Assembly (NCBI GenBank): GCA_022842935.1
Contig: JALHOP010000004.1
Coordinates: 62,001-126,000 of the forward strand
DNA from: Myxococcota bacterium
GTDB taxonomy: Bacteria > Myxococcota > XYA12-FULL-58-9 > JALHOP01
DNA: 64,000 nt
Reading direction: 5' to 3'
In this document: positions 9,241-62,139 of the stretch, piece after piece
Layout: each line of letters opens with the position of its first letter
How positions within the stretch are numbered: position 1 is the stretch's first letter
Notes under the pieces: model-generated
What the model was told of the DNA's origin: nothing
The model's database searches: none
What the model saw: the letters and a program-made list of their open reading frames with translations, nothing else
Program-made: the position numbers and the translations under genes

Positions 9241-9322
9241 GCGCGCTAAAGAGCACTAATGTTTTCCCGAAGGCAAACAAGTCGAAGAGAGCAAATTTCG
9301 GAAGAGCCGCGCTCTTTGGGGG

Positions 9323-9727
9323 TCAGTTCCGAGGGAAGTCGAGCGTAATCACGTTGTCTTGCTGCGACTGTTTCACGTTCACGGTTTGGCGCACGTAGAT
9401 GTCAATCTGGATGTTGCTGTTCGATGCGCCCTCGATGACGCGGGGCATGACCATGGACACTGGTCCGTCGAAGAGGTGGGTATCCAGGTGGCGCAGATTG
9501 TTCATGACCTGGCAGCCCGTGTTGTCGAGCGTGATGCTGACGACACCGTCGCGTTGGCTGACCCGATAGCGGGCTGGCTCGTTGGTGCGGACGAAGACGC
9601 GCGACACCTCGCGAAACTGTTGGAAGCCCACGAATTCGAGGTTGCGGGGCGCGTCTTCCATGTCCTGGCTCGCCGCCGGGGAGGCGAGAAAGAGCGAGAC
9701 CAAGGCTAAGGCGATGCGAGTGCGCAT
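9323..9727 (-). CDS. Secreted AMIN-domain protein
   Basis: The 134-residue protein begins with a clear signal peptide (M-R-T-R-I-A-L-A-L-V to S-P-A-A-S-Q). It is otherwise one AMIN-like beta domain: alternating short strands such as S-R-V-F-V-R-T, V-V-S-I-T-L-D-N and N-V-I-T-L-D-F ending in P-R-N. AMIN domains anchor periplasmic machines such as amidases and secretin complexes to peptidoglycan or septal sites. No catalytic domain is attached. It lies directly upstream of lptD on the same strand, suggesting an envelope role. Confidence 0.75.
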   Translation of the reverse strand: MRTRIALALVSLFLASPAASQDMEDAPRNLEFVGFQQFREVSRVFVRTNEPARYRVSQRDGVVSITLDNTGCQVMNNLRHLDTHLFDGPVSMVMPRVIEGASNSNIQIDIYVRQTVNVKQSQQDNVITLDFPRN

Positions 9728-9922: not shown

Positions 9923-11140
9923 TCACCAATCGATGGGTGGGTCACGCAACGCCCCCGTCATGACTGCCAACGCGTCCGCTACCAGCAACAGCGAGCCGGT
10001 CACGAGCACGAAACCAGCATCCCGCCCGGCACGCCGACTCGCTTCGACGAGGGCCTGCGCGATGCCACCCACCACCGGATGCCCGAGGCCTTCGAGATCG
10101 GCCAACGACCGTGAGCGCGCGGAACCTACCGGAACGAGCTGGATGCTCGCCGTTCGCTTGGCCAGTGGGCCGAGTATCATGGCGGGGTCTTTGTCCGCTA
10201 AAACAGTCGCAACGAGGTGCATCGGGCGCCCTCGCGCTTGTTCGTCATTGTCGAGGGCGGTGAGAAGAGCGTCGACGCCGTGACCGTTGTGGGCGCCGTC
10301 GAGGAGGATGTCTCCCAGCCACTGATAGCGACCGGGCCAGCGAAACTCGCGACAGGCCCGAGTCAGGTGGTCGACGCCGACGCCGAGGCCTGCTCGCCGG
10401 AGCATCTGGAGGGAGGCCGCCGCAGTGGCAACATTGGTTCGCTGATAGGTTCCCGGAGGCGAGGTCGATGGGAAGGGGGGCGCACGAAAAAGGGGCGCAT
10501 CGAGCATGCGCGCCTGTGCCTCCAGGACGTCCCATACGACAGGGTCCTGCGGTGCGCTCACCACGGGGACGTCGCGTTGTATGATGCCAGCCTTCTCTGA
10601 CGCGATAGCGGACAGAGTCGACCCCAGGTGTCGCTCGTGATCGATGCCGATCGGTGTGATTACCGACAGCATGCGGTCGACGACATTGACCGCGTCGAGT
10701 CGGCCCCCCATACCCACCTCGAGCACGGCGATATCGACGCGCTCCTCTGCGAAGACCAAAAGACCCATGAGCGTTGCGACCTCGAAGAAGCTCAGAGGCT
10801 GCGGCAGGCGACGCTCAGCCGATGCGATAGCCGCGTAAAGCGTGACCACGCGCCCCGATTCGATCTCGGCACCGTCGACGCGAATACGTTCCGTGAACCG
10901 GAGGAGGTGCGGCGATGTGTAGTGGCCGACTTTATGGTCGGCGTGGCGCAGAGCGTCCGCGATGAGCGTGGACGTCGAGCCCTTGCCGTTGGTGCCCGCG
11001 ACGACCACGTGCCTGACGCGTTTTTGCGGGTCACCGAACAACGCGAGAGCAGCGCGCATGTTGGTGAGCCCCAGCTTGGTGCCCGTCGCCGCACGCGCGA
11101 ACATGGCGCCGAGCGTTGCGGCATATTCGGTGCGCGTCAT
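9923..11140 (-). CDS. folC: Folylpolyglutamate synthase / dihydrofolate synthase
   Basis: FolC adds glutamate to dihydropteroate or reduced folates using ATP. The 405-residue protein has the normal length. It carries the P-loop G-T-N-G-K-G-S-T (about 50-57), the H-Y-T-S-P-H-L motif that follows it, G-G-R-L-D-A-V-N and the C-terminal-domain start D-G-A-H-N. The Mur-ligase fold is therefore complete. It lies 56 bases after the phosphodiesterase gene on the same strand. Whether it is read from the upstream signalling genes cannot be told. Confidence 0.93.
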   Translation of the reverse strand: MTRTEYAATLGAMFARAATGTKLGLTNMRAALALFGDPQKRVRHVVVAGTNGKGSTSTLIADALRHADHKVGHYTSPHLLRFTERIRVDGAEIESGRVVTLYAAIASAERRLPQPLSFFEVATLMGLLVFAEERVDIAVLEVGMGGRLDAVNVVDRMLSVITPIGIDHERHLGSTLSAIASEKAGIIQRDVPVVSAPQDPVVWDVLEAQARMLDAPLFRAPPFPSTSPPGTYQRTNVATAAASLQMLRRAGLGVGVDHLTRACREFRWPGRYQWLGDILLDGAHNGHGVDALLTALDNDEQARGRPMHLVATVLADKDPAMILGPLAKRTASIQLVPVGSARSRSLADLEGLGHPVVGGIAQALVEASRRAGRDAGFVLVTGSLLLVADALAVMTGALRDPPIDW

Positions 11141-11196: not shown

Positions 11197-11976
11197 TCAG
11201 AACGTGAACTCGTCCATCGGCTTCAAGATGGTGATCCGCGAGTCCTTCAGATCAGCGATCTGCTGCTTCACGACATCGTAAAACGCGGGCTTGAGGTGGT
11301 AGATGAGCACCGGCACTTGGCCCTTGACCTTCAACTTCTTGAGCTCGGTCTGGAGCATGAGCGGTGTCAGGTGACCCGAGACCTTGGCGAGGCCCTCCAT
11401 GGCGTTGGGAAAGCTGACCTCGGTGATGAAGGCGCGCAGATCTTCCGTTTTGTTCGCCTCCTCGTAGAGCAGGTCGGTCGGTCCGGTGTCGCCCGAGTAG
11501 ACGATGGTGCCGGTCTTGTCGCGGACGAAGAGCGCGTGGGTTTCGACCGTGTGATTCACCAGCACGGTTTTGATTTGGTAGGGCCCGATCTCGATCGTCG
11601 CGCCCGGCTTGAACCGGTTGACTTGCAGGGTGGGGCGCTTCTCAGGGTCACCCGGGTTGGGAATCTTGGAGAAGTCTGGCCAGATCACGTTGTTCAAGAT
11701 GTGCTTGAACAGGGCGTCGGCCGTGAAATCGGTGCAGTGAACCTGCAGCGGTTGTTTGCGTGCTCCGATGATGTTGTCGCAAAGCAGCGCGATGTCCCGG
11801 ACGTGGTCGAGATGCACGTGCGAGATCACGATGTGATCGATGGCGATCTGCTCTTGGACCGTGAGGCTGCGCGTCGCCGAGCCGGCGTCGAGCAACACGA
11901 CATCGTCGATGAGGAATGAGCTCGCTCGATGAGTCGCCGATTCGCCGCCGTGGCAGCCGAGTACGCGAAAGCGCAT
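11197..11976 (-). CDS. Metallo-beta-lactamase-fold cyclic-nucleotide phosphodiesterase (class II type)
   Basis: The 259-residue protein has the MBL zinc signature S-H-V-H-L-D-H (H53, H55, D57, H58), a later N-H-T-V-E-T-H, S-G-D-T-G and S-G-H-L-T-P. This arrangement fits class II 3',5'-cyclic-nucleotide phosphodiesterases, which open cAMP to AMP, more closely than the tRNase Z exosite type. No signal peptide is visible, so it should act in the cytoplasm. GGAG stands about 10 bases before the ATG. It lies 93 bases after a Crp-type regulator and an adenylate cyclase, which supports cAMP as substrate. Substrate is inferred from family and context. Confidence 0.75.
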   Translation of the reverse strand: MRFRVLGCHGGESATHRASSFLIDDVVLLDAGSATRSLTVQEQIAIDHIVISHVHLDHVRDIALLCDNIIGARKQPLQVHCTDFTADALFKHILNNVIWPDFSKIPNPGDPEKRPTLQVNRFKPGATIEIGPYQIKTVLVNHTVETHALFVRDKTGTIVYSGDTGPTDLLYEEANKTEDLRAFITEVSFPNAMEGLAKVSGHLTPLMLQTELKKLKVKGQVPVLIYHLKPAFYDVVKQQIADLKDSRITILKPMDEFTF

Positions 11977-12069
11977 TGAGGGGGAAATCTCCTTGGTCTG
12001 CCGTCAGGTCGAGCCGGCCTCGATTGGCCGGCGAACGAAAACGTCTCCCCGAAGAAAATTCAGTCTAAG

Positions 12070-12717
12070 CTAAATATCTCCGAACTTCTCTTTCATCTCC
12101 AGGAACTCGAGGAACTCGCGCAGCTTGTTCACGTCGTGAATGACGACACCGCTCTCGGTGAGCTTCACGAGCCGAGATCGGATGAGCTTGTTCATCACCT
12201 CGTTCACCGGCTCGATTTCGAGACCTATCTTCTGGGCGATGTCCTTGAGGGTGATCTCGAGCTGCAGCCCCTCTGCGGTCTGGGAGCCTTGCTTGGCGGC
12301 AATGTGGCTCAAGAAGTGGACAACCCGCGAGTTGTGATCACGCAGGAGGAGGTTTTCGATCTGGTCATCGGTCTCTTGAAGACGCGTGGCGAGCTTCTTG
12401 ATGAGACGCACGGCGATCTCGGCGTTACCGCGCACCATCGCCTCGAAGGTCTTGGGGTCGATTACCAGGAGTCTTGCTGGTTCCTCGACGGTCGCCGACG
12501 CCGAGCGCGGCTTGTTGTTAAGGATCGACATCTCACCGAAGAACTCGCCGGGCCCGAGGATCGCCAGGACCTTCTCGACGTCGCGCACGTTCTTGTGGAT
12601 GCGAACCTTGCCCGATTGAACGACGAACATCTCCTTACCGGCTTCGCCGTCCTTGAATAGGGCGTGTCCCTTGGGAAACTCGCGACCGAACCGTTCGTAC
12701 AATTTGTCGTCTGCCAT
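12070..12717 (-). CDS. Crp/Fnr-family cyclic-nucleotide-binding regulator
   Basis: The 215-residue protein has an N-terminal cNMP-binding barrel and a C-terminal winged helix. The phosphate-binding cassette reads F-F-G-E-M-S (G61, E62) and P-R-S-A-S (R71, S72), the residues that hold cAMP in E. coli Crp. The DNA-binding part includes T-L-K-D-I-A-Q-K-I-G with recognition helix E-P-V-N-E-V-M-N-K-L. An acidic, Glu/Phe-rich C-terminal tail is unusual. It starts 28 bases after the adenylate cyclase gene, so it is the likely reader of the cAMP made by its neighbour. Target promoters are unknown. Confidence 0.85.
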   Translation of the reverse strand: MADDKLYERFGREFPKGHALFKDGEAGKEMFVVQSGKVRIHKNVRDVEKVLAILGPGEFFGEMSILNNKPRSASATVEEPARLLVIDPKTFEAMVRGNAEIAVRLIKKLATRLQETDDQIENLLLRDHNSRVVHFLSHIAAKQGSQTAEGLQLEITLKDIAQKIGLEIEPVNEVMNKLIRSRLVKLTESGVVIHDVNKLREFLEFLEMKEKFGDI

Positions 12718-12745
12718 GGCGACCCTCGATCCGTAAGAGCTATCG

Positions 12746-15322
12746 CTACTTCGTGGTCATCGTCCAGACGCCGTCCCAGTTCGGGCCCGGCGGCTCGGCG
12801 CGCATGATCTCGCACCGCTCAATGTACGTCTCGCTGGGGCCGTCACCAATTTTGATCTGGGTACGGATCATGTCGAAGATGGTGATGGCGTCGTCCCACT
12901 TCTGGTTGCGGTACAAGTTCAAGCCGCGGGCCCAGGAGTCGAGCAGGTCCTTGGCGATCCCAACGGGAGCACCCTTACCGACGAGCTCGTAGATATGAAC
13001 GGGGTCGTTTTTGCCCTTGACCTTGACCAGGTCCATCTCGCGCACGTGGATGTGGTCCTTGGCGAGGGCGTGGGTCGACTGGCTGATGATGATGTTGGTG
13101 CCGTATTCTTTGTTGATGCCCTCGAGACGGCTGCCGAGGTTTACCGTGTCGCCCATCGCTGTATAGTTGAAGTAGTTCGGCGTACCCATGTTGCCGACGA
13201 CCATCGGGCCCGAGTTGAGGCCGATGCCGATGTCGATGTGATGGGTCATGCCCTCTGCCGCCCATGCTTTGCGCAGGCGCTCGAGCTCGACCATCATATC
13301 GACCGAGACGTGACAGGCGCGAATGGCGTGGTCGCTCTGATCGATTGGCGCGTTGAAGAACGCCATGATCGCGTCGCCGATGTATTTGTCGAGCGTGCCA
13401 TCGTACTTGAAGATGAGGTCGGTCATTGGGGTGAGGTAGGTGTTGAGCACGTGCACGAGTTGCTCGGGCGCGAGCTTCTCCGAGAGCGTCGTGAACCCGC
13501 GCACGTCGCTAAAGAAGACCGTGCACTCGCGGCGCTCGCCACCGAGCTTCAAGCGCGATGGGTCCTTGATGACCATGTCGACGACGGTCTTGTTCAGATA
13601 GTGCTGGAAGGCGCGGCGGATCTGGCGCTTCTCGCGACCCTCGGTGAGGAACTTGTAGATGATGATGGCGACCGCAGTGAGAGTCGCTTGCATGAACGGC
13701 AAGACGTTGAGCACCCAGTAACCGTTCGAGAAGATGAGCTTGACGTCGACGATGTAGAGGATGGCACCGAAAAGGAAGGTTCCCGTGATGGTCGCCCACG
13801 CAGGCAGGCGGCCGAAGCCGACCCCCATCAAGATGCCGAGCAAGATGAACCCGATAAGCTCGAACATGACGATGAACTCCTGGCGAACCAGGAAGCGGCC
13901 ATCGAGGATGTTCTGAATGGTGGCGGCGTGGATGTAGACGCCAGGCGTGACGGGCGAGAAGGGGGTCACGCGAAAGTCGTAGGTTCCGATGGCGGTCATG
14001 CCGACGAGCACGACCTTGTCCTTGAATGACGTGGCCGGGGCTGTGCCGTCGAGAATGTCGGCGACGCTTAGCGTTGGAATGTACTGCTGCGGCACGCCGT
14101 AATAGTCGACGAGCATCTCGCCGCGCTCGGTCGTGGGGATGCGCACGTCACCAAGGTCGACGTGACCGATGGTAACCTTCGGCCACATCCCCTCGACGGG
14201 ATAGACCGTTTGGTCGAGGTACTTGGCGGCGCTCGCGAGCGACAGGGCAGGGTAGAAGGCGCCGTCGTAGGCGACCAGCATTGGCGCTTTGCGCGCGACG
14301 CCATCCTGATCGGGCAGGACGTTGAAGTTGCCGAACCCCTTTGCCTGTTCGGCGATCTTCGGCAGCACCGCGCGCACGCCGATGAACTTCTCGCCACGGA
14401 ACTTCGAGAAATCGGTCGCGGTTGGCTCAATTACGACTCCGTAAGGAGCCTCTTTTTCGATGAAAAGCGAGGGGACCGCCGCGCGCTTTAGCGGAACCGA
14501 AGCTGCCTTCATCACTTCGGGCGAGATGCTTTTCAGGTCTTCGGACGACTTGAGGAAGAAGTAGCCGAGAATCGTCTGGGGCGAGCGGGCCACGGCGCGC
14601 GCAAGAGCCTCGTCGGGGGAAAGATCCGAGATCTCGCGACTCATCAACTCGTAGAACTTGCCGGAACGGTCGTTCCAATCGACTGCGAGGTCGCGCGCGC
14701 GCCCAAGGTTTTTGCTCGACTTTTCGGTCTGCGCCTTCAGCCGCTGAAGGGTCAACAACGCGCCGGGCGGTGGTGGCTGCCTGTCCTCGCGAGCCTTGAG
14801 CTTGTTTTCGAGCTCCGCGAGCGTGGCTCTGAGCTCGACCTGGACCGCGCTAGTGGTGCGCAGCTCGTCGATCATCTCTTTGGAGAGCTGCGAACCTGGA
14901 GAGAGGGCGCGCTCGTCGTAAGCCGTCATAAAGCGGCGTACGCTCTGATACGACGAGTTGCGGTCCTCGTCGCCAAACACGATATCGAATCCGATCACCT
15001 TGGCGCCGCCTTCGGTGAGCCGATCGACGAGGTCGGCGATGATGCGGCGGTTCCACGGAAACAAGCCGTAGCGTTCGATGCTCTTCTCGTCGACTGCGGC
15101 AACGACCACCTTGGGGTCGGTGGTGACGGGCCTGCCGCGCGCGTGGAATTTCAGGTCGAGCGACTTCAGGTCGAGCAGGCGGATGAAACCGTTCCGCGAT
15201 AGCGGCCCTGTCGCGTTGGGCGCGCTCAGCTCGATGGTCGCGTGGATGATGCAGAAGAGGAGGGCGATGACGAGAGCGATACGGAGGGGGGTGACACGCC
15301 GTAGGAAGCTCGGGATTTTCAC
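12746..15322 (-). CDS. CHASE2-domain class III adenylate cyclase
   Basis: The order is one N-terminal membrane helix (about 14-32), a large periplasmic CHASE2 sensor (about 40-440, with D-E-K-S-I-E-R-Y-G and F-D-I-V-F-G-D-E-D), three membrane helices (about 470-560) and a class III cyclase domain (about 590-770). Both metal sites are present (F-S-D-V-R-G-F and K-Y-I-G-D-A-I-M). The Lys in D-K-Y-I-G-D and the Asp in M-G-D-T-V-N are the adenine-selecting pair, so ATP is the likely substrate. At 858 residues all parts look intact. The GTG start at 15322 has AAGG upstream. The Crp-type gene follows by 28 bases. Confidence 0.9.
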   Translation of the reverse strand: MKIPSFLRRVTPLRIALVIALLFCIIHATIELSAPNATGPLSRNGFIRLLDLKSLDLKFHARGRPVTTDPKVVVAAVDEKSIERYGLFPWNRRIIADLVDRLTEGGAKVIGFDIVFGDEDRNSSYQSVRRFMTAYDERALSPGSQLSKEMIDELRTTSAVQVELRATLAELENKLKAREDRQPPPPGALLTLQRLKAQTEKSSKNLGRARDLAVDWNDRSGKFYELMSREISDLSPDEALARAVARSPQTILGYFFLKSSEDLKSISPEVMKAASVPLKRAAVPSLFIEKEAPYGVVIEPTATDFSKFRGEKFIGVRAVLPKIAEQAKGFGNFNVLPDQDGVARKAPMLVAYDGAFYPALSLASAAKYLDQTVYPVEGMWPKVTIGHVDLGDVRIPTTERGEMLVDYYGVPQQYIPTLSVADILDGTAPATSFKDKVVLVGMTAIGTYDFRVTPFSPVTPGVYIHAATIQNILDGRFLVRQEFIVMFELIGFILLGILMGVGFGRLPAWATITGTFLFGAILYIVDVKLIFSNGYWVLNVLPFMQATLTAVAIIIYKFLTEGREKRQIRRAFQHYLNKTVVDMVIKDPSRLKLGGERRECTVFFSDVRGFTTLSEKLAPEQLVHVLNTYLTPMTDLIFKYDGTLDKYIGDAIMAFFNAPIDQSDHAIRACHVSVDMMVELERLRKAWAAEGMTHHIDIGIGLNSGPMVVGNMGTPNYFNYTAMGDTVNLGSRLEGINKEYGTNIIISQSTHALAKDHIHVREMDLVKVKGKNDPVHIYELVGKGAPVGIAKDLLDSWARGLNLYRNQKWDDAITIFDMIRTQIKIGDGPSETYIERCEIMRAEPPGPNWDGVWTMTTK

Positions 15323-15389
15323 GCCTGTACCTTACACGGAGAGGGACTTCGTGTCGCATTCCTTGCACGCGGTTCGGCTGGGCCCGCGA

Positions 15390-15785
15390 TCAGGCTTCTG
15401 TCGTCATGCCCGGGCGCCGCAACAGCAAGAGGCGGTCGAGCTGCTCTGAGAGAAGGCTCACGTCGTTGGACTTGATGATGTAGCCGTCGGCGCCGCTCTT
15501 GGCCGCGAGCTGTTGCAGCTCGTCTTCCGGCATGGATGAATAGAGCGCCACGAGGACGTCTTTGGTCTGCGGGCTCTCCTTGAGCATTCTGCACACCAAG
15601 TCGCCATTCAGGGCCGGCATGTTGACGTCGAGGAGCACCAGCTTGGGTTGGTTCTTGCGGACGAAGGCCTGGATGCCGAGCGAGGCGTTGTACGTGACGA
15701 CCTCGAAGCCCAAGGGGGCCAAGGCCTCGCGCGCCCACTCGAGCGCTACGAGACTGTCGTCCACCAGAACGATCTTCGTACCCAT
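15390..15785 (-). CDS. Single-domain response regulator (receiver)
   Basis: The 131-residue protein is a receiver domain with no output domain. The acidic pair D9-D10, phospho-acceptor D53 (L-L-D-V-N-M-P), S83 and K105 are all in place. The ATG at 15785 is preferred because GGGG lies about 8 bases upstream; a GTG two codons earlier is possible. It sits between cheR (94 bases upstream) and the cyclase (67 bases downstream). It is a natural phosphate acceptor for the CheA encoded in the same run and could carry the signal towards the cyclase, but no direct link is shown. Confidence 0.88.
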   Translation of the reverse strand: MGTKIVLVDDSLVALEWAREALAPLGFEVVTYNASLGIQAFVRKNQPKLVLLDVNMPALNGDLVCRMLKESPQTKDVLVALYSSMPEDELQQLAAKSGADGYIIKSNDVSLLSEQLDRLLLLRRPGMTTEA

Positions 15786-15878
15786 GAACACCCCAAGGCG
15801 AGGCTAAGGACTTTCCATTGTCCTGGTCAAGAAACCACCACGCCTACCTGTGCATACACGACACGCTGTCAGGGCAAA

Positions 15879-17420
15879 TTAGCGCCCCGCAATTCTACTC
15901 GAAGTTTGAGGAGTTAGCCGCTGTCTCGCACGTTCTTTGTTCGTTCGGCAAAGTTCCACGATGAACGAGTCGTTGATCCAGAAGGTCTCGCTCGATCCTT
16001 CGGCTCGCTCGCGCAGACGCTGGTTGACGCGCGGGTCCGACGCCGCCTGCTCCGCGCGAGCGTACTCGCGGACCGCCTCGTCGAACTGGCCCGCTCGGTG
16101 CAACGTCAGAGCTAGCTCGTAGCGCGCGAAGGTGAACCCGGGCTCCAGAAAAAGGGCACGGCGCAGGGCCTGGCGTGCCGCTTCGACGTCACCCCGGGCG
16201 AGCGAGAGCCAGCCAACGTAGAAATAGAGATCGAACGCCAGAGGGTCCGCTGCGATGGCATCGTCGAGCGCGGCGCAGGACTCTTCGAATCGCTTCTCGT
16301 TGAAGAGCAGCATGCCGAGAGCGCGCAAGACACGCGGATGGTCGGGATGCTGCTCACGGAGCTCAACGAGGCGACTGATCGCCATCTCCCGGGCTCCCCC
16401 AGCGGCGGCCGCGAGGAGCTTCTCGACTTCGAAACTCGTTTGGTCGGCCTCGTCGAAGGTCTGTGTGATGCGGCGTGGCCGCTTGGCATCTTCGGATGCG
16501 GGGGACTTGCCGTCGGCGGGAGGCGCTGCACGCGCGCTTGCTGTGGGTGTCTTTTCGTCGCGCGACGGCGCTGTCGCCACAGCTTCGAGCCAATACACGC
16601 GCATCGCGGGGGTCCAAGCACCGCGTAGGAAACCGTAGGCTTTGCCAAAGCGCGCAGCAACGAGCCGTCGGTCGTAGGTGGCTGGGTTCTCCGCGCCGCC
16701 CAGGAAGAGGACGGCGTCTTGATCCATGGCGTCGCAAAACCTGTCGAGCGTCCGCGCTACGCCTTGTCCGCTAAAGTAGATGAGGACGTTGGCGCAGATG
16801 ATGATGTGCCAGCTGCCTGGCTCGGGTAACGGGTCGCTCGCGAGATTCAGGCGGTCGAAGCTGATGCGCTGACGAATCTCCTCTTTGACCGCGATGGTGT
16901 GGTGCTCGACGGACACGTACTTGCGGACGTCGTGCGGCAAACGATCGATGCGCGCGTGGCCGTAACGCCCGGCGCGTGCGCGGTCGAGCGCGTTCGTGTT
17001 GATATCGGTCGCGAGGATGCGGATTCGCCGCTTGTCGAACCATCCCCCTTCGGTCAGCGCCATCGCCAAGGAGTAGGGCTCTTCGCCGGTCGAACAGCCG
17101 GCGCTCCAAATGTTGATGCCGCGAGCGGGATGTAGCTGCGCATGCAGGGCCGGCATGATGGTGTTCACGATGGCGGACATCGTGTCCGGGTAGCGGTAGA
17201 ACGCGGTCTTGCCAACGGTGACGACGTTGACAAGGGTCTGCATCTCCGCAGCAGCGATGTTCTTCTCGATGCTGTCGACGTAGGCGTCGGGGTTTGGGTG
17301 ACCTAGCGTCTCGGCGCGTGCACGTAAGACCCCGCCGACGCGTTGGACGTTCTGTCTGTTCAGCCGGATGCCGGTGCGAGCTTCGAGGATGGCCGCGAAT
17401 CGATCGGCGAACGAGGTCAC
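15879..17420 (-). CDS. cheR: CheR-type protein methyltransferase with C-terminal TPR repeats
   Basis: CheR methylates receptor glutamates with S-adenosylmethionine. Of the 513 residues, the first 280 or so hold the CheR alpha and Rossmann domains, with W-S-A-G-C-S-T-G-E-E-P-Y-S-L-A-M (SAM site) and F-D-R-L-N-L. A disordered Lys/Pro/Ala linker follows, then about four TPR repeats (about 370-490). TPR-tailed CheR proteins usually belong to alternative chemosensory systems. The GTG start at 17420 overlaps the cheB stop by 4 bases, so translation is probably coupled. No receptor substrate is encoded in the window. Confidence 0.92.
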   Translation of the reverse strand: MTSFADRFAAILEARTGIRLNRQNVQRVGGVLRARAETLGHPNPDAYVDSIEKNIAAAEMQTLVNVVTVGKTAFYRYPDTMSAIVNTIMPALHAQLHPARGINIWSAGCSTGEEPYSLAMALTEGGWFDKRRIRILATDINTNALDRARAGRYGHARIDRLPHDVRKYVSVEHHTIAVKEEIRQRISFDRLNLASDPLPEPGSWHIIICANVLIYFSGQGVARTLDRFCDAMDQDAVLFLGGAENPATYDRRLVAARFGKAYGFLRGAWTPAMRVYWLEAVATAPSRDEKTPTASARAAPPADGKSPASEDAKRPRRITQTFDEADQTSFEVEKLLAAAAGGAREMAISRLVELREQHPDHPRVLRALGMLLFNEKRFEESCAALDDAIAADPLAFDLYFYVGWLSLARGDVEAARQALRRALFLEPGFTFARYELALTLHRAGQFDEAVREYARAEQAASDPRVNQRLRERAEGSSETFWINDSFIVELCRTNKERARQRLTPQTSSRIAGR

Positions 17421-18580
17421 ATCCGCACCTTGCCGGAGACGCCGAGCCACTCGCAGATAGTGGCCGGCATCTCGTGGGGAGCTTGTTGAACCCCGACTGC
17501 GCCAAGCTCGAAGGCAACCCGGGGCATGCCGTACACGAGGCTCGAAGCCTCGTCTTGTCCCAAGGTCAGCGCACCGCTCCTGCGCATGGCAAGCAAACCG
17601 TCGGCGCCGTCCGCGCCCATGCCGGTCAGGATACAGCCGATCGCCGTTCGCCCGTAGACGCGCGCCACAGACCACAACAAATAGTCGAGCGACGGGCTGT
17701 AGGTCGAGTCGGGGAGCTGGTCGAAGATACGTACGCGGCCACGGCTGACGACCTCGACGTGTTTGCGTCCTGGCGCCACATAGATGTTGCCGGGCTCGAA
17801 GCTGCCTTGGTCGAGGAGCTCGACAACTGGTGCCCGCAAGACCTGACCCAGAAAGCCCGCAAACGACGCCCCCATATGCCGACCCAGATGCAACGCGATC
17901 AGAATAGGAACGCGTAAAGGAAACGCAGGCGCCAGCCCTTCGAGGAGCGTTCGTACGGCTTTGGGGCCGCCGGCCGAAGCAACGACGACGAGCAGCTCCA
18001 TGCCGGCCGCGGGACTCGGTTGCGCTGCTTGGAGCGGACGCGGCGCGGGTCGCGGAGTGGTTGGTGTTGGTGTGGGTTCGTTTCGCTCCATGGCCTGCGC
18101 GCGGAGGCGATCCGTGCGTTGCTTGATGCGGTCGAGGACATGCGGAATGACGGGCGAGCGGGCGATGAAGCGCAGCTGCCGCTGGATGCGCTTACGCCAT
18201 TCTTTGTCGTTGAGGTCGGAGAGCTCGGGCTTCTCGATCACGTCCATGGCTCCGAGGGTGAGCGCATGGAACGCGTCCTTTCGCCACTTGGGTCGCAAGG
18301 TTGCGGTTAGCATGATAACGGGAGTCGGCTGCTCCGCCATGACGGAGCGCACGACCTCGAATCCGTCGATGTCCGGAAGACCGATGTCGCAGGTGACGAG
18401 ATCCGGCTTGAGCGTTTTGACGCGCTCGACACCTTCTTTGCCAGTGCCGACTGCCGCGACGACCTGGATATTCGGATCTTCCTCGAAGAGATCGACGAGC
18501 GCCTCGCGCTGGATGGGGGAGTCCTCGATGACCACGAGGCGGATTGGCTTGTCCTTGTATTCGCCGGGGGTCGGGCTCAT
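17417..18580 (-). CDS. cheB: CheB-type protein-glutamate methylesterase/response regulator
   Basis: The 387-residue protein has an N-terminal receiver (acidic E19-D20, phospho-acceptor D65). A Pro/Thr-rich linker of about 40 residues follows, then the methylesterase domain with the catalytic triad in place: S202 in V-A-S-A-G-G-P, H231 in A-L-H-L-G and D324 in T-G-M-G-A-D-G. It removes methyl groups from, or deamidates, chemoreceptors when phosphorylated by CheA. It overlaps cheA upstream and cheR downstream by 4 bases each. No pentapeptide tether is obvious at its end. Confidence 0.94.
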   Translation of the reverse strand: MSPTPGEYKDKPIRLVVIEDSPIQREALVDLFEEDPNIQVVAAVGTGKEGVERVKTLKPDLVTCDIGLPDIDGFEVVRSVMAEQPTPVIMLTATLRPKWRKDAFHALTLGAMDVIEKPELSDLNDKEWRKRIQRQLRFIARSPVIPHVLDRIKQRTDRLRAQAMERNEPTPTPTTPRPAPRPLQAAQPSPAAGMELLVVVASAGGPKAVRTLLEGLAPAFPLRVPILIALHLGRHMGASFAGFLGQVLRAPVVELLDQGSFEPGNIYVAPGRKHVEVVSRGRVRIFDQLPDSTYSPSLDYLLWSVARVYGRTAIGCILTGMGADGADGLLAMRRSGALTLGQDEASSLVYGMPRVAFELGAVGVQQAPHEMPATICEWLGVSGKVRM

Positions 18581-20826
18581 CGAATGACATGACCGATCGT
18601 GGAGATGAGAGTGTCGGCGGCGAAGCTCGATTTTACGAGGTACGCGTCGGCGCCCGCGTCCAGCGCCATGCGTTTGGCCTCCGGCGTATCGAGCGTGGAC
18701 ATGACCACGATGGGAAGGTTCTTGAGGCGCGGATCTTTGCGCACTTGGGCGCAGAGTTTGAATCCATCCATGCGCGGCATCTGGAGATCGGTGAGGAGTA
18801 GGTCGAAGCGGTCAGCCTGTAAGCGGTCGAGGGCCTCGACTCCATCCGATGCCTCGACGACCTGGAAGCCACGCGCACGCAAGACGCCCGCGGCATACTC
18901 GCGCGTGATCATCGAGTCCTCGACGTACAAGATGCGTCGCTCACTTCCATCGCCGCGCGCTTCGCTACCGCCGCCACGGCTGCGCCGGGTGTCTTGCAGC
19001 GAGCGTAGCAAGTCCGGTGGGTGCAGGATGAGCACCACGTCTCCGTTCTCCATGAGCGTCACGCCGCTCGCCATGTTGGCCCGTCCTACGTAGTGCCCAA
19101 GAGGTCGCGCGACGATCTCGCGTTCGCCGATCAGATTGTCGACGACGAAGCCAGCGATGTCGTCACCGGAGCGCAGGACGACGACGCCAACCTTGTTGAC
19201 GAAGATGTCCTTGATACCCTTGAGGCCGAGCGCTTCGCGAAGTCGCACGAGTGGCAAAAGCTTGCCGCGGAAACTCGTGGTTTCGCGACCTTCGATCGTG
19301 CGGATCTCGCGAACGGGTAGGCGATAGACCTCTACGACGGCGGCGTTGGGCACAGCGAAGATCTGATCTGCCGTCTCGAGGAAGAGGGCACGTGTGAGTG
19401 ATAGCGACACTGGCACTTGCAAAACGAACTTCGTGCCGACACCGTCGATCGTCTCCAGCGTCACGGTGCCGCCCATGCGATCGATGACGGTGCTGACGAC
19501 GTCGAGACCGACGCCACGTCCCGCGAGCTCGGTGGTGGTCTGTGCGGTCGACAACCCGCTCGTGAAGACGAGTCGCGCGAGCTCTTCGGGGTTTAAGCGT
19601 CCTGCGTGCTCCTCGTCGATTGTGCCCATGGCGATCGCGCGACGACGGACGCGGTCGATATCGATGCCGCGGCCGTCGTCGGAGAACTCGATGCGTACGA
19701 GCTCACCGTCCTGACGGGCGTGGATGCTGACGAGGCCCTCCTCCCGTTTGCCTGCGCGGCGTCGACCCTCGGGCGTCTCGATGCCGTGCACTACGGCGTT
19801 GCGCAGAAGATGCAGGCAAGGCTCGCCGATCTCGTCGAGGACGCGCTGGTCGATACCAAGCTCTTCCCCGCTCGTCTCGACGCGGATGCGTTTGCCCTCG
19901 AGGCGCGCGACACTGCGCACGAACGACGGGTAGCCTGCAAAGACGCTGCGAAGAGGCTGTAGCCGTGCCTCACGCATGTGCTCGGATAGCTCGGAAAAGG
20001 ACAGGTCGAGGCGGAAGTGATGCTCGCGAAACTCGCGGAGCTCGGTCGTGATGCGGCCTGGGAGAGCGGCTAGCTTCTCCTTTGCGGCGACACGTTCGAC
20101 ATCGTCGTGACGGTTGCCGCCCTCGCTCGAAACGCGCATCAACTCGCGGAGGTCGTCGACCATCGCGGTGAGTCGCGCGAGGTATTGCCGGTTGCGGACG
20201 AGCGAGCCCGAAAGGTTGCTGACCTCGTCGGTCATGTTGTCGAGCAAATCGGTCGCGACGTGCATGCTGCGACCATTACCTAGGCGGCGATCGGACCCAT
20301 CCGCTTCAGCGGCCTTGGTTTCGGCGCTCGCGTCGTCCCTTTCGGAGGCTTGCTCGCGGGGCTGCGCAAGCTCGATGTCGTCGTCTCCCAAATGCAAGCC
20401 GTCGTCCGAAGGGGCGGGGCTGGCTGCGGGTTTGCCGACGCTCTCTGGCAAGACGTTGTCGCGCAGACGCCTGATGACGGCTTCGATCTCTGGATCGCTG
20501 ACGGTGACACCCTCGCCGCGCGCCTGGACGCAGGTGAAGATCGTGTCTATCGCTTCGTAGAGAAGCTGCTCGGTGAGCTCGGTGATCTGCCTCGCTCGGT
20601 GGTGGCTAAACAGCATGTCTTCGCTTGCGTGAGCGACCCGTTCGATTTCCGGCAGTCCCAGGAGGCGAGCTTCACCCTTGAGGGTGTGGAGGTCGCGGCC
20701 GATGCGTTTGACGACCTCGTTCACGTCGCCGGCGCTGCGCAGAGTCGACAGGACCTGACCCATCTGGGTGAGACGGTCGCTCGCGGTCGCGAGGAACCGG
20801 GTGAGCAGGGCGCTGATCCCGCTCAC
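18577..20826 (-). CDS. cheA: Hybrid CheA histidine kinase with C-terminal receiver
   Basis: Domain order in 749 residues: HPt (phospho-acceptor H47 in L-H-T-L-K-G-E-A-R), an acidic variable linker (about 130-190), a dimerisation helix pair, a HATPase domain (H-L-L-R-N-A-V-V-H-G, D-D-G-R-G-I-D, G-R-G-V-G-L-D), a CheW-like domain (about 495-620) and a receiver (phospho-acceptor D680 in L-L-T-D-L-Q-M-P, K732). The usual P2 CheY-docking domain is not obvious. The fused receiver suggests internal phosphotransfer or a phosphate sink, as in Frz-type and other alternative systems. It overlaps cheB and the cheW-like gene by 4 bases each. Confidence 0.93.
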   Translation of the reverse strand: MSGISALLTRFLATASDRLTQMGQVLSTLRSAGDVNEVVKRIGRDLHTLKGEARLLGLPEIERVAHASEDMLFSHHRARQITELTEQLLYEAIDTIFTCVQARGEGVTVSDPEIEAVIRRLRDNVLPESVGKPAASPAPSDDGLHLGDDDIELAQPREQASERDDASAETKAAEADGSDRRLGNGRSMHVATDLLDNMTDEVSNLSGSLVRNRQYLARLTAMVDDLRELMRVSSEGGNRHDDVERVAAKEKLAALPGRITTELREFREHHFRLDLSFSELSEHMREARLQPLRSVFAGYPSFVRSVARLEGKRIRVETSGEELGIDQRVLDEIGEPCLHLLRNAVVHGIETPEGRRRAGKREEGLVSIHARQDGELVRIEFSDDGRGIDIDRVRRRAIAMGTIDEEHAGRLNPEELARLVFTSGLSTAQTTTELAGRGVGLDVVSTVIDRMGGTVTLETIDGVGTKFVLQVPVSLSLTRALFLETADQIFAVPNAAVVEVYRLPVREIRTIEGRETTSFRGKLLPLVRLREALGLKGIKDIFVNKVGVVVLRSGDDIAGFVVDNLIGEREIVARPLGHYVGRANMASGVTLMENGDVVLILHPPDLLRSLQDTRRSRGGGSEARGDGSERRILYVEDSMITREYAAGVLRARGFQVVEASDGVEALDRLQADRFDLLLTDLQMPRMDGFKLCAQVRKDPRLKNLPIVVMSTLDTPEAKRMALDAGADAYLVKSSFAADTLISTIGHVIR

Positions 20827-21215
20827 GCGGCCACGTTTCCGGTTGACGCTAAAACGGACAGGTCCAGCAAGAGCACCAACTCGCCGTCAATCAGGGTGGT
20901 GCCAACCCACCACGGCGGGGCGCCGTGCCTCTCCAACACGGGGGACAGGGGCTGGATGTCGGCGAGCCCGAGGTTTCGCGTGCCCAAAGCCCCGTCGATG
21001 CCGAAGGTCACCGCTCCGTCGGTGTCGATCTCGACGACGCGCCGCGTTTCTGCGTCGCCTGGAGGTGCGGCGTCGCCGACATGCAGGAACTTTCCGAGGT
21101 CAACGGGCGCGTCGAAAGCGTTCGGATGTCTGATGCCGCGAACCGATAGCGCGTCGACGCCGACGGTCCAGGTCCCGCAGCGCATCAGCAGAATTCCGAT
21201 GGTGGTGTCGCGCAA
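20823..21215 (-). CDS. Short CheW-like scaffold protein
   Basis: The 130-residue protein has a divergent CheW fold: a strand G-T-W-T-V-G-V-D-A-L, an R-R-V-V-E-I-D segment and the C-terminal E-L-V-L-L-L-D-L strand. It starts 4 bases after the stop of the larger cheW and overlaps cheA by 4 bases, so it is part of the operon. It probably acts as a second coupling protein between receptor and CheA. The sequence is weakly conserved and the fold is inferred from pattern and position. Confidence 0.7.
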   Translation of the reverse strand: MRDTTIGILLMRCGTWTVGVDALSVRGIRHPNAFDAPVDLGKFLHVGDAAPPGDAETRRVVEIDTDGAVTFGIDGALGTRNLGLADIQPLSPVLERHGAPPWWVGTTLIDGELVLLLDLSVLASTGNVAA

Positions 21216-21219
21216 GCGG

Positions 21220-21756
21220 TTATCCCCGGCGCACGCGGCTGTTCTCGAGCAAGATCCGGGCGTCGAGCACCGAGAGGATCCCGCCGTCCGCGTCGATCTG
21301 TCCCGTGACGAACGCGAGCTCTCCTACGAGGTGAGCGAGTGGTGGTTCGATCGCCGACATCCGTACTTGCACGAGGCCCACCACCTCACTCACTGGAACC
21401 GCTGCCTCGAGCTGCTCGTGCTGCACGACGACCAGGCGCTTGGGCGACTCTTCGCCCTCGATCCCAGAGAACGCCGCGAGGTCGAGCACCGCGGTAATCT
21501 TGCCATGCCGGTTGAAGACGCCGCGCACATGGTCCGGCATGTGGGGGACGCGCGTCACAGTGGTCGGCGACAACACTTCGGCCACCTGGCCAATCGGGAT
21601 CGCGTATCGGCGATCGCGAAGGCGCACACAGAGGTACTCAGCCTCTGGCTCGACCTCGTCGGCGATCGCCTGGTCGCCGAGGGCTCGTTTGACCGCTAGA
21701 GCCTCGTTAAGACCGATGGACGAGGTTTTTGCATCGTCGTTGCCTGATGCACCCAT
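21220..21756 (-). CDS. cheW: CheW-type coupling protein
   Basis: The 178-residue protein has an acidic N-terminal extension of about 35 residues, then a full CheW domain: E-Y-L-C-V-R-L-R-D-R-R-Y-A-I-P-I, the V-T-R-V-P-H-M-P-D-H-V-R-G-V-F-N-R core and K-I-T-A-V-L-D-L. CheW bridges receptor tips and CheA. It is the first gene of the minus-strand chemosensory operon. An imperfect palindrome lies just before its ATG at 21756. Confidence 0.9.
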   Translation of the reverse strand: MGASGNDDAKTSSIGLNEALAVKRALGDQAIADEVEPEAEYLCVRLRDRRYAIPIGQVAEVLSPTTVTRVPHMPDHVRGVFNRHGKITAVLDLAAFSGIEGEESPKRLVVVQHEQLEAAVPVSEVVGLVQVRMSAIEPPLAHLVGELAFVTGQIDADGGILSVLDARILLENSRVRRG

Positions 21757-21782: not shown

Positions 21783-21917
21783 ATGGTATGCACTTTTTGA
21801 CGGGGCGAGGTGACGTAGTGGCAGGGGTTTACGAGCATCGCCCCACTGTTTCGCGCGATAAATACAGAGAATGGCTGAGTTCCGCCCTAAAGCCGGGGCA
21901 AGGGGTTGCGTAACGCG

Positions 21918-22634
21918 ATGTCAGTAACAGCGACACCAGGAGCGGTAACCACTCCCTACCCAGCGCCCGCCGTCGATGGCAGCCAGCCGTACGCGGCTCC
22001 CGCGGCTGTCGATCCAGGGGTCGTGCAACCTCTCAATGTCCCCCGTGAGCACCTGGAGGCAGCCCAATCGCGCCTCGACGGACTGCGTCAGGAAGCCATT
22101 GCCGGCGATGACGCGGCGACGCGGCCAAGCTTCTGGCAGAAGGCCCTTGAGGTCTTCGAGTTCATCATCCGGTGCTTCCCGGGCATCGGCTCGATCATCA
22201 GCATGGCCTCGGCGGCCATCCGCGTGTGCCGCATGGCGCTCGCCCTCCTCTCTGGAGAGGACCGTGAGCATATCGACTGGACGAAAGAGCTCACGCGACT
22301 ATCCGGCGACTTGTTGGGAATCATCTACCCGCTGGGTGGTGCGATCGCCAACGCGGGCCTGAACTACTGGTTCGATGCGCAAAGCGACACCCGGCAGGGT
22401 GTGCAGATTCTCGGCGGCGCCAACTACCTGGCCCCTGAGAGCTGGGGGCTCGGCCCCAACCGACGCGGCGTGGTGAACGACACCCTGACGATGGTGCGCA
22501 GACAGTTTGCGGGAGTCATGTCAGGCCCCACCCAGCCTTACGTCGACCCGTACGCGAGCGGCGCGCTACAGCCGCAGCCCGGTCTCGGGTCGGTGCCACC
22601 GGGTGCCGTGCCTTTTGCCCCGGCAGCAATATAG
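21918..22634 (+). CDS. Hypothetical protein with central hydrophobic helices
   Basis: The 238-residue protein has a Pro/Ala-rich N terminus (about 1-40), a charged helix, then two hydrophobic stretches: about 70-110 with F-I-I-R-C-F-P-G-I-G-S-I-I-S-M and 132-150 with L-L-G-I-I-Y-P-L-G-G-A-I. The C terminus is Pro/Gly/Tyr-rich. It has no recognised domain and no clear signal peptide. The ATG at 21918 is chosen over an in-frame TTG at 21906. AAGGGG lies 13 bases upstream, rather far. It is divergent from the chemosensory operon and shares its 160-base upstream region. It may be a small pore- or membrane-associated protein, but this is not shown. Confidence 0.6.
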   Translation: MSVTATPGAVTTPYPAPAVDGSQPYAAPAAVDPGVVQPLNVPREHLEAAQSRLDGLRQEAIAGDDAATRPSFWQKALEVFEFIIRCFPGIGSIISMASAAIRVCRMALALLSGEDREHIDWTKELTRLSGDLLGIIYPLGGAIANAGLNYWFDAQSDTRQGVQILGGANYLAPESWGLGPNRRGVVNDTLTMVRRQFAGVMSGPTQPYVDPYASGALQPQPGLGSVPPGAVPFAPAAI

Positions 22635-22704: not shown

Positions 22705-23178
22705 GTGAAACAGCAGTTGGTTAAGCCGCAGCCGAACGCCGAAGAAGTGCGCGCTCAGACCGAGCAGTTCATGCAACTGCTTCGTGACCTCCAGGCCGAC
22801 AAGACGCCTCAGGCTCAACGTCTGCGTCAGACGCTCGTCGAGACCATCGAGCGCTGGGGCAACGCCCCCGACACGGCGCACGCCCAGTCCGAGCTGGTGG
22901 GCGCGCTTCTCGGCATCGAAGCAGGCGTTGCTGAGGTTCTTCTCGGGACCGTGCAACCGCTGAGTGAGCGGTTGTACAAAGAAGGCAAGCGTGTCGGGAG
23001 TGGCTCCCCGCACGGCAAGTCGATCCGCGCGATGACGCGCGCACTGGGGACCCTGGCCGAGGGTCTGCAGCAGATCATCGACGCGGTCAGTGAAGGCGAT
23101 CAGGAACTCCGTTCTAGCGCACACAAGCGCATCGACGAGGCCAAGGAGCTGCTGCGCGCCGTCGGTATGCGCGGCTAG
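22705..23178 (+). CDS. Hypothetical soluble helical protein
   Basis: The 157-residue protein is Gln/Glu/Ala-rich and predicted mostly helical (A-E-E-V-R-A-Q-T-E-Q-F, then long amphipathic helices ending in D-E-A-K-E-L-L-R). It has no signal peptide or membrane segment and no recognised family. The GTG at 22705 is preferred because TACGAT, a good -10 box, ends 7 bases before it and no ribosome binding site exists; upstream codons in the frame look non-coding. It ends 7 bases before lpxK, so the two are probably co-transcribed. Confidence 0.6.
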   Translation: MKQQLVKPQPNAEEVRAQTEQFMQLLRDLQADKTPQAQRLRQTLVETIERWGNAPDTAHAQSELVGALLGIEAGVAEVLLGTVQPLSERLYKEGKRVGSGSPHGKSIRAMTRALGTLAEGLQQIIDAVSEGDQELRSSAHKRIDEAKELLRAVGMRG

Positions 23179-23185
23179 GGCGCCC

Positions 23186-24208
23186 ATGGCTCCGCATGCG
23201 GAGAGGCCTTGGGGGCCCGTGGCGGCGCCGCTCGCGTGGGCATTTGCCGCAGCCGCGCACACGCGACGCTTTGCATATGACTGCGGCGTCTTGAGCGCGC
23301 GCGACGCGGGAGTGCTCACCGTCTCCGTCGGTGGGATCGAAGCAGGTGGCAGCGGCAAGACGCCCGTTGCCGGCTGGGTGCTCGACGCTTGCATCGAGCT
23401 CGGCATGCAGCCGGGGCTCTTGACGCGCGGCTATGGGCGCGCGACCCGCGGCTTGGTCTTGGAAGAAGGCGCCCTCGCGAGCCCTGTGCGCGTGGGTGAT
23501 GAGCCGGCGATGCTGGCGCGCGAGCGTCGCATTCCGGTCGCCGCCTCGGAGCGTCGGTACCCGGGGGCCGTTGCCCTGCGTGAGCGAGGTTGCAATGTGG
23601 TCGTGCTCGATGACGGCTTTAGCCACCGCGCCTTGAAGCGCGACCTCGACATCGTTGTGCTGCGGGGCGAGGCGCCGCTGGGAAATGGCTATCTGCTGCC
23701 CGCCGGTACGCTTCGGGAGTCGGAGGAGGGCCTTCGGCGAGCGCACGTCGTATGGGCGCACAGCCGGACCGGGGGGCGAGACGAAGAGCTCCTCGCCCGG
23801 CTCGCCGACGAAGCGTTGCTGGTGCTTAGTCAGGATGGGCCGGTGACCGTGACGACACGTGAGGGTGTCCCTGTCGACCTTACGGGCAAGCGAGTCCTCG
23901 CCGCCTGTGGAATAGCGCGTCCGGCGGCGTTCGTTGCGACTCTCGAGCGATCTGAAGCGGAGGTCGTTGACCTAGTGGGCTTTCCTGATCACGTTCGCTA
24001 CACTCCGAAGGATATGGGGGTATTGGCCCGACGCGTCACCGACGAACAGGCAGATGCCTTGGTGGTTACGGCCAAGGACGCGGTGAAGATCGAAGGGCTC
24101 GCGGTCGACGCCCCGGTCTGGGTGGCGCGGGTAGGACTCGAGGTGACGCGCGGAGCTGCTGAGCTGCGGGAGCGGCTGCGCGATGCGCGTGAGAAGCGGA
24201 CGGCATGA
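23186..24208 (+). CDS. lpxK: Tetraacyldisaccharide 4'-kinase LpxK
   Basis: LpxK phosphorylates the 4' position of the lipid A disaccharide at the inner membrane. The 340-residue protein shows V-S-V-G-G-I-E-A-G-G-S-G-K-T-P (P-loop, about 46-60), T-R-G-Y-G-R, V-G-D-E-P, V-L-D-D-G-F-S-H and T-A-K-D-A-V-K, all typical of the family. The ATG at 23186 begins the usual N-terminal membrane-associated helix. It overlaps the next gene by 4 bases. Together with lptD it shows an LPS-containing outer membrane. Confidence 0.95.
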   Translation: MAPHAERPWGPVAAPLAWAFAAAAHTRRFAYDCGVLSARDAGVLTVSVGGIEAGGSGKTPVAGWVLDACIELGMQPGLLTRGYGRATRGLVLEEGALASPVRVGDEPAMLARERRIPVAASERRYPGAVALRERGCNVVVLDDGFSHRALKRDLDIVVLRGEAPLGNGYLLPAGTLRESEEGLRRAHVVWAHSRTGGRDEELLARLADEALLVLSQDGPVTVTTREGVPVDLTGKRVLAACGIARPAAFVATLERSEAEVVDLVGFPDHVRYTPKDMGVLARRVTDEQADALVVTAKDAVKIEGLAVDAPVWVARVGLEVTRGAAELRERLRDAREKRTA

Positions 24209-61759: not shown

Positions 61760-62139
61760 GAACCCATGGGCGCGGTGCGGACGAGCCCCACACTTAGGTG
61801 AAGCTCGCCGCACCGCTCGAGGGACCGCGGCGCGTGTGCCCCTACGCGCCAGCGGGCGAAGTTCGCGCGCCGCATCCACGAACGGCGCAAGCTTCGCTGC
61901 GACTCTCAACTTGAATGGTATTTCGACGACAAGGTCAAAATGACTCCACGTTCGGCCAGTTCGTTGTGGTGATATCGGCCGATCGACGCCAGGGTTGCCC
62001 CGTAAAAGAGCGACTTTTTGACACCAGGGATCGCTTGTCCGCTAAAGCGACCAGGGGCCTCGCGACCAGCGCCATAGGCACCAAATCTGTGGCGCTGCCG
62101 ATAAGCAAAGATGCCGCCGATACAGGGCAGGGTTTGGCC
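61760..62139 (+). other. Non-coding region with hairpin and candidate promoter
   Basis: About 380 bases have no secure gene. A hairpin of about 13 bp with one bulge (61773-61786 with 61803-61815) follows the LysR gene without a T-run. TTGACA (62018-62023) with TAAAGC (62043-62048) is 19 bases apart, a weak promoter for the next gene. TTGTCCGCTAAA at 62035 is one of three copies in the window. Confidence 0.5.

Follow-up and report, generated by a model that had tools for sequence, protein, structure and literature searches.

Gene content of the locus

The 64,000-nucleotide (nt) stretch of DNA analysed here, called the window throughout (positions 62,001 to 126,000 of contig JALHOP010000004.1, draft genome GCA_022842935.1 of an apparently uncultured Myxococcota bacterium), carries nine open reading frames (ORFs) on its minus strand between positions 11197 and 21756. 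An earlier, sequence-only reading had named them as cheW, a cheW-like gene, hybrid cheA, cheB, cheR with TPR repeats, a receiver gene, a CHASE2 adenylate cyclase gene, a Crp-type regulator gene and a class II-type phosphodiesterase (PDE) gene, and had proposed that together they form one chemosensory array that sets the level of cyclic AMP (cAMP). The ORF list and Pfam searches bear out all nine genes with their domains, common strand and coordinates (Table 1). The anatomy is real, but it was over-read as one system. With a probability of about 70%, we read the locus as two independent signalling modules in tandem, a Frz-like operon upstream and an old cAMP module downstream; their contiguity is most likely a lineage-specific juxtaposition.

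The junctions between the genes are consistent with this division. The che core overlaps or abuts, with 4 nt between the two cheW genes followed by 4-nt overlaps before cheA, cheB and cheR, while the genes around the module boundary are separated by 93 and 67 nt. The cheR start is most likely the GTG at 17420, which overlaps the cheB stop by 4 nt, although the listed ORF begins at 17675. The receiver may start at ATG 15785 instead of 15791; counted from 15785, the gaps after cheR are 93 nt (cheR to receiver), 67 nt (receiver to cyclase), 28 nt and 93 nt. The spacings reported earlier (94, 67, 28 and 93 bases) therefore hold, with the difference between 94 and 93 reflecting the choice of start codon. 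The G+C content is 0.63–0.65 across the che genes and 0.59–0.61 across most of the cAMP module.

Table 1. Features of the locus in window coordinates
Feature	Position	Strand	Evidence
cheW1, FrzA position	21220..21756	-	PF01584, 99.8 bits
cheW2, short divergent CheW-like, FrzB position	20823..21215	-	PF01584, 29.6 bits, profile 52-134 only
Hybrid cheA, FrzE-like (Hpt, HATPase, CheW, REC)	18577..20826	-	Pfam, CheA tree
cheB, FrzG position; intact receiver and methylesterase	17417..18580	-	Pfam, motifs
cheR with C-terminal TPR, FrzF-like	15879..17420	-	Pfam CheR and TPR
Stand-alone receiver, 133 aa	15390..15791	-	PF00072, 54.9 bits
CHASE2 and class III adenylate cyclase	12746..15322	-	Pfam, solved-chain matches, catalytic residues
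cNMP-binding protein with HTH_Crp domain	12070..12717	-	Pfam, alignment of 27 homologues
Predicted class-II-type cyclic nucleotide PDE, metallo-beta-lactamase fold	11197..11976	-	PF02112, 51.2 bits
folC, usually downstream of the cAMP module	9923..11140	-	TIGR01499, 303.7 bits, above cut-off
orf134 (134 aa) and lptD-like gene, conserved neighbours in part of the relatives	6790..9727	-	
lpxK, flanking the che operon on the side away from the cAMP module	23090..24208	+	PF02606, 263.5 bits

The same strand continues past the PDE gene through folC, orf134 and the lptD-like gene (11140 to 6790), a continuation that the sequence-only reading missed. Upstream of the che operon lie lpxK and an M23 peptidase gene, both on the opposite strand. 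Between lpxK and the che operon there is also a 242-aa ORF without any Pfam match (21906-22634, plus strand).

A Frz-like operon without a receptor gene

The phosphotransfer and catalytic residues of the che proteins look intact, including the Hpt histidine, the N and G boxes and receiver aspartate of CheA, and the catalytic motifs of CheB. The stand-alone receiver likewise keeps its Asp/Ser/Lys phospho-site. At E 1e-60 or better, 109 of 146 genomes, the window's own included, hold a relative of the window CheA; those that score best are about 35% identical. For comparison we read the neighbourhoods of 20 Frz-type cheA genes from whole genomes. At locus L120 (genome G049, 9 Mb), tandem receivers on the opposite strand are followed by cheW, a short cheW, a gene for a soluble methyl-accepting chemotaxis protein (MCP), hybrid cheA, cheB and cheR-TPR; these genes are named by operon anatomy and not by comparison with a named M. 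xanthus sequence. The L120 layout is that of the Frz set as described in passages of PMC12077210 and PMC4546325. L132 (Pyxidicoccus caerfyrddinensis) has the same layout where checked, its MCP not having been called, and the Frz gene order was seen in L120, L132, L108 and L104. The order in the window equals that of L120 minus the MCP gene and plus a single receiver after cheR.

The missing receptor gene escaped the sequence-only reading. In the relatives it stands between cheW2 and cheA, whereas in the window the stop codon of cheW2 overlaps the start of cheA and the cluster contains no MCP gene. Among the Frz-type genes compared, cheW1 is closest to the FrzA-position CheW of L120 (34%). The cheW2 gene is homologous to cheW2 of L108 (29%, E 4e-7) and was found in 4 of 146 genomes, its own included; by BLAST it did not match the FrzB-position protein of L120, nor does it match the 145-aa ORF that takes its place in G005, a genome of the same order. 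A passage of PMC4546325 describes FrzZ and FrzB as confined to Cystobacterineae, and the Frz core genes as always clustered and as having moved between genomes horizontally in single blocks. The stand-alone receiver is 33–34% identical to the single receivers of che clusters L104 and L109. We assign it to the che operon because a single receiver also follows cheR in the Myxococcota Frz-type clusters L104, L105, L116 and L118.

A quick tree of 52 of the 72 gathered CheA rows, supported by the Shimodaira-Hasegawa-like approximate likelihood ratio test (SH-aLRT) only, places the window CheA in a 19-row set with Frz-type CheAs, including those of L120 and L132 (SH-aLRT 97), with L109, L108 and L119 as its nearest neighbours (SH-aLRT 90). 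The other four CheAs of the genome fall outside this set. Judged by gene order and tree, the window cluster is Frz-like; since the receptor gene is missing from it, we refrain from classing it as a member of Frz. A Wsp-type output was considered and rejected, as Pfam finds no GGDEF domain and the receiver stands alone.

Receptors would have to be encoded elsewhere. The genome contains eight MCP genes and five CheW/CheA loci, and two orphan MCPs, at C15:95293 and C6:22007 of this genome (G000), rank first and second for all three Frz-type MCP queries (L120, L104 and L108). With the L120 query they score 162 and 124 bits, against at most 104 bits for the others, and a simple hydropathy count predicts transmembrane segments in both. 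These two are the best candidates for receptors of the window che operon. The C15 gene (L213:13147-15479, minus strand) encodes a Frz-type MCP with a HAMP domain and is preceded, with a 4-nt overlap, by a YfiR/HmsC-like gene (PF13689, DUF4154). Another cyclase locus is about 10 kb away from this MCP gene, with unrelated genes in the intervening DNA. Five PilT-family ATPases over the cut-off and one FliG were also found in the genome, while the Arf-family search was not specific for MglA. We infer that receptors from elsewhere would drive the hybrid CheA through CheW, with CheR-TPR and CheB adapting them and phosphate passing from CheA to its own receiver and to the stand-alone receiver. The output would most likely be surface motility (type IV pili or polarity), as in Frz, which governs reversals in Myxococcus.

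A cAMP module shared across Myxococcota

The solved chains matched by the cyclase include Pseudomonas aeruginosa CyaB (3r5g), among the closest. Asp606, Asp650, Lys646, Thr721, Asn728 and Arg732 are invariant in 21 of 21 homologues; we take the two Asp to be the metal-binding pair, the Lys and Thr (the Thr/Asp position) to specify adenine, and the Asn and Arg to stabilise the transition state. The PDE carries the motif SHVHLDH and keeps its metal ligands in 31–32 of 32 homologues. PF02112 matches it above the cut-off, and PF02112 and PF12706 both match 20 of 20 homologues. The best solved match of the family profile is 3',5'-cyclic-nucleotide phosphodiesterase 1 (4ojv); that of the single sequence is YhfI (6kns), which a passage of PMC9293780 names as an atypical class-II PDE. 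The class II-type assignment made from the sequence is thereby upheld, and the enzyme probably removes cAMP.

The Crp-type protein is less conventional. Its cyclic nucleotide monophosphate (cNMP) domain matches 27 of 27 members of the family and HTH_Crp_2 matches 23 of 27. The earlier claim of intact cAMP-binding residues stands for the phosphate-binding Glu62 and Arg71, which are invariant in 27 of 27, but not for the position of Thr116 (aligned to E. coli Thr127), where Thr is unique to the window and 25 of 27 have Ala. Across the 27 homologues, positions 167-173 of the recognition helix are highly variable and lack what we take to be the Arg/Arg pair of E. coli CRP. By contrast with this variable helix, the C-terminal tail is strongly conserved in the same alignment (LREFLEFLEMKEKFGDI in the window). 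Judging from these residues, the protein may have lost the usual mode of DNA binding. A single-sequence structure prediction had a mean pLDDT (predicted local distance difference test) of 39.8 and was not used.

Of 195 genomes from the phylum, 152 (the window's own included) hold the PDE at E 1e-30 or better, and we mapped its locus in 49 of the 151 other genomes (31 plus 18 loci). The first 31 come from 39 other genomes with a PDE match, after omission of the near-duplicates G025, G031, G045, G053, G055 and G057 and the weak matches G023 and G052. Crp adjoins the PDE gene in 43 of the 49 mapped loci, the cyclase lies upstream in 30 (in some with another gene between cyclase and Crp), and folC lies downstream in 35. 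The genes upstream of the cyclase vary by group, being purM-like in several families and nuo-like in genomes of the same order, as called by eye without a family search. The cyclase-Crp-PDE set, usually followed by folC, occurs in most of the Myxococcota families sampled and is an old, widely shared gene set of the phylum. In this module the membrane cyclase, answering to its periplasmic CHASE2 sensor, would make cAMP, the cNMP-binding Crp-type protein would read it, and the class-II-type metallohydrolase would remove it. In the f8 family, a gene for a GAF-GAF-HD protein (HD_5; HD-GYP type by eye) stands between cyclase and Crp (L054:4884-6545, minus strand), hinting at cross-talk between cyclic di-GMP and cAMP; L063 and L067 have genes of similar size.

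Juxtaposition of the modules and comparison with known systems

None of the 49 mapped PDE loci carries a che gene above 60 bits, as assessed by tblastn with the window's own proteins as queries; for 41 of these loci the sequence reached 6 kb or more beyond the upstream end of the module. Two signals stayed below the 60-bit threshold, one of 54 bits to part of cheA in L061 and one of 48 bits to part of the cheB receiver in L059. The converse search agreed, with no cyclase, Crp or PDE gene near any of the 20 Frz-type cheA loci from whole genomes. We scanned 100 cheA loci in all, these 20 plus 80 among the matches listed in a contig scan, mostly of distant CheAs. A cyclase match was present in L183 and L154, a Crp match in none of the 100, and a weak PDE-like match (27%, 42 bits) in L124. 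One conserved nine-gene chemosensory-cAMP system, as first proposed, is therefore rejected; its order is not kept in any of the 49 relatives, and loss of order in relatives is what the sequence-only reading had itself set against its proposal.

Two other arrangements were noted in the same searches. In the Myxococcaceae-type genomes G014, G031, G047 and G124, a different hybrid cheA lies 20–27 kb upstream of the PDE gene in the same orientation (G014:C34, G031:C40, G047:C1, G124:C1); we did not count so distant a cheA as linkage. In a Polyangiaceae metagenome-assembled genome (JABFXY010000106.1, L183:9422-13995), an ORF encoding three receivers and a class III cyclase comes after a hybrid cheA. 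With its predicted built-in cyclase output, this che cluster is closer to the idea of a chemosensory array that sets cAMP than the window is.

The arrangement in G005 separates the two modules. At L045, the cAMP locus of that genome, lpxK and the cyclase are immediate, divergent neighbours; relative to the cyclase, lpxK is oriented as it is in the window, where it flanks the che operon. The Frz-like cluster of G005 is on another contig, in the order receiver, cheW, the 145-aa ORF, cheA, cheB, cheR/TPR and MCP, and its neighbours are AAA, ABC and PspA-type genes, not the cyclase. The two modules thus stand apart within one order, since cluster and cyclase sit on different contigs. In the window, the che operon occupies the space between lpxK and the cyclase. 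We favour juxtaposition over a single array because the modules are apart in relatives and lpxK adjoins the cyclase in G005, and we infer that the che operon came to its present place by insertion. An RNA element or a tRNA as the landing site was rejected, as the window has neither an Rfam match nor a tRNA.

Several observations weigh against this conclusion. The genes share a strand, no large gap separates them and the gaps hold no terminator-like site, so that read-through is possible. The chance that a che cluster lies just upstream of a cyclase gene in the same orientation is about 0.3%, a rough estimate that assumes 5 che clusters, 8 cyclase loci and about 6000 genes. Such adjacency is uncommon but not decisive, and the placement may not be neutral. 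Furthermore, the relatives compared all lie outside the window's own family, and the CheA tree was made without bootstrap and gives the window CheA a long branch (1.45).

The closest competitor keeps the chemosensory array as the setter of cAMP, with the phosphorylated receiver (or the CheA receiver) acting on the CHASE2 cyclase and with Crp and PDE as dedicated effector and eraser. The contiguity of the genes on one strand and a stand-alone receiver with an intact phospho-site speak for it, as does the match of the cyclase catalytic domain to CyaB, which a passage of PMC3019171 ties to the Chp chemosensory system of P. aeruginosa; the triple-receiver cyclase fusion that follows cheA in L183 indicates that coupling of che to a cyclase does occur in the phylum. 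We nevertheless consider it unlikely, given that no che gene stands beside the module in the 49 relatives, that the cyclase has its own CHASE2 sensor and lacks a receiver domain, and that the relatives of the receiver sit in che clusters without a cyclase. A narrower version strikes us as distinctly improbable: a Frz-like operon, having lost its receptor gene, would be coupled to the old cAMP module through a stand-alone receiver that gates the CHASE2 cyclase, turning reversal-type chemosensing into a cAMP signal read by the Crp-like protein.

Coupling at the level of expression, in which che read-through adds to transcription of cyclase, Crp and PDE while the proteins have no signalling contact, fits the common strand and the 67-nt receiver-cyclase gap without a terminator-like site. 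We hold it highly doubtful, for the relatives must express the cyclase without che, and weak promoter-like sites occur in the cheR-receiver gap (TTGACC-18-TAGCCT, 8/12) and in the receiver-cyclase gap (GCGACA-17-TAAGGT, 7/12). A consensus promoter scan found 3 sites against 1.6 expected by chance, none of them in the gaps, and by eye no clear shared promoter was seen upstream of the cyclase in relatives. That the che-cyclase junction is an artefact of assembly or binning is exceedingly improbable: the genome is a draft in 46 contigs with an estimated contamination of 2.89%, but the junction lies well within a 442-kb contig, the folC/lptD and lpxK flanks are those expected of the phylum, and the changes in G+C are small.

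Collectively, these results support two neighbouring modules, and the gene contiguity seen here does not reflect a conserved chemosensory-to-cAMP circuit. The widespread cyclase-Crp-PDE set nonetheless offers a concrete handle on cAMP signalling in Myxococcota, and the comparison brings to light a Frz-like operon without a receptor gene. Searches of an open-access literature collection for a chemosensory-cyclase operon, for CHASE2 in Myxococcus and for a myxobacterial cyclase-Crp-PDE set listed no title or abstract that describes the Myxococcota gene set or its juxtaposition with che.

For the clustering of cyclase, Crp and PDE genes itself, Sinorhizobium meliloti provides a precedent with its cyaD1-clr-spdA locus, which, according to passages of PMC4222275, combines a receptor-type cyclase, the Crp-like Clr and a predicted PDE, with the genes in conserved proximity in Sinorhizobium. 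Those passages mention no chemosensory genes, unlike the window. They also describe SpdA as a class III enzyme that hydrolyses 2',3'- and not 3',5'-cyclic nucleotides; its inactivity on 3',5'-cAMP therefore calls for caution over the predicted activity of the window PDE. The window PDE shares the [T/S]HXHXDH motif and the YhfI match with the atypical class-II PDEs Rv1339, YhfI and Corynebacterium glutamicum CpdA, as these are presented in part of PMC9293780, but differs in that the Myxococcota family profile best matches the typical class-II PDE1.

The window resembles the Chp/CyaB/Vfr/CpdA system of P. aeruginosa in having a chemosensory system, a class III cyclase with a CyaB-like catalytic domain, a Crp-type protein and a PDE in one organism. 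There CyaB is tied to the Chp system, whereas the window is known from gene content and order. The window PDE is of class-II type, while CpdA presumably belongs to class III, and the single Hpt domain of the window CheA sets it apart from what we take to be the architecture of ChpA.

The closest likeness of the che operon is to Frz of Myxococcus xanthus, with which it shares two CheW-type genes, a hybrid CheA-receiver, CheB and CheR-TPR in the same order, as well as the grouping of its CheA with Frz-type CheAs. It differs in lacking a receptor gene of the FrzCD type, in that one single-domain receiver gene follows cheR where Frz has the tandem receiver FrzZ, in a CheB that keeps its receiver domain, and in identities of only about 30–35%. 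If the two modules do interact in the lineage of the window, a Frz-type system would there have gained a second-messenger output.

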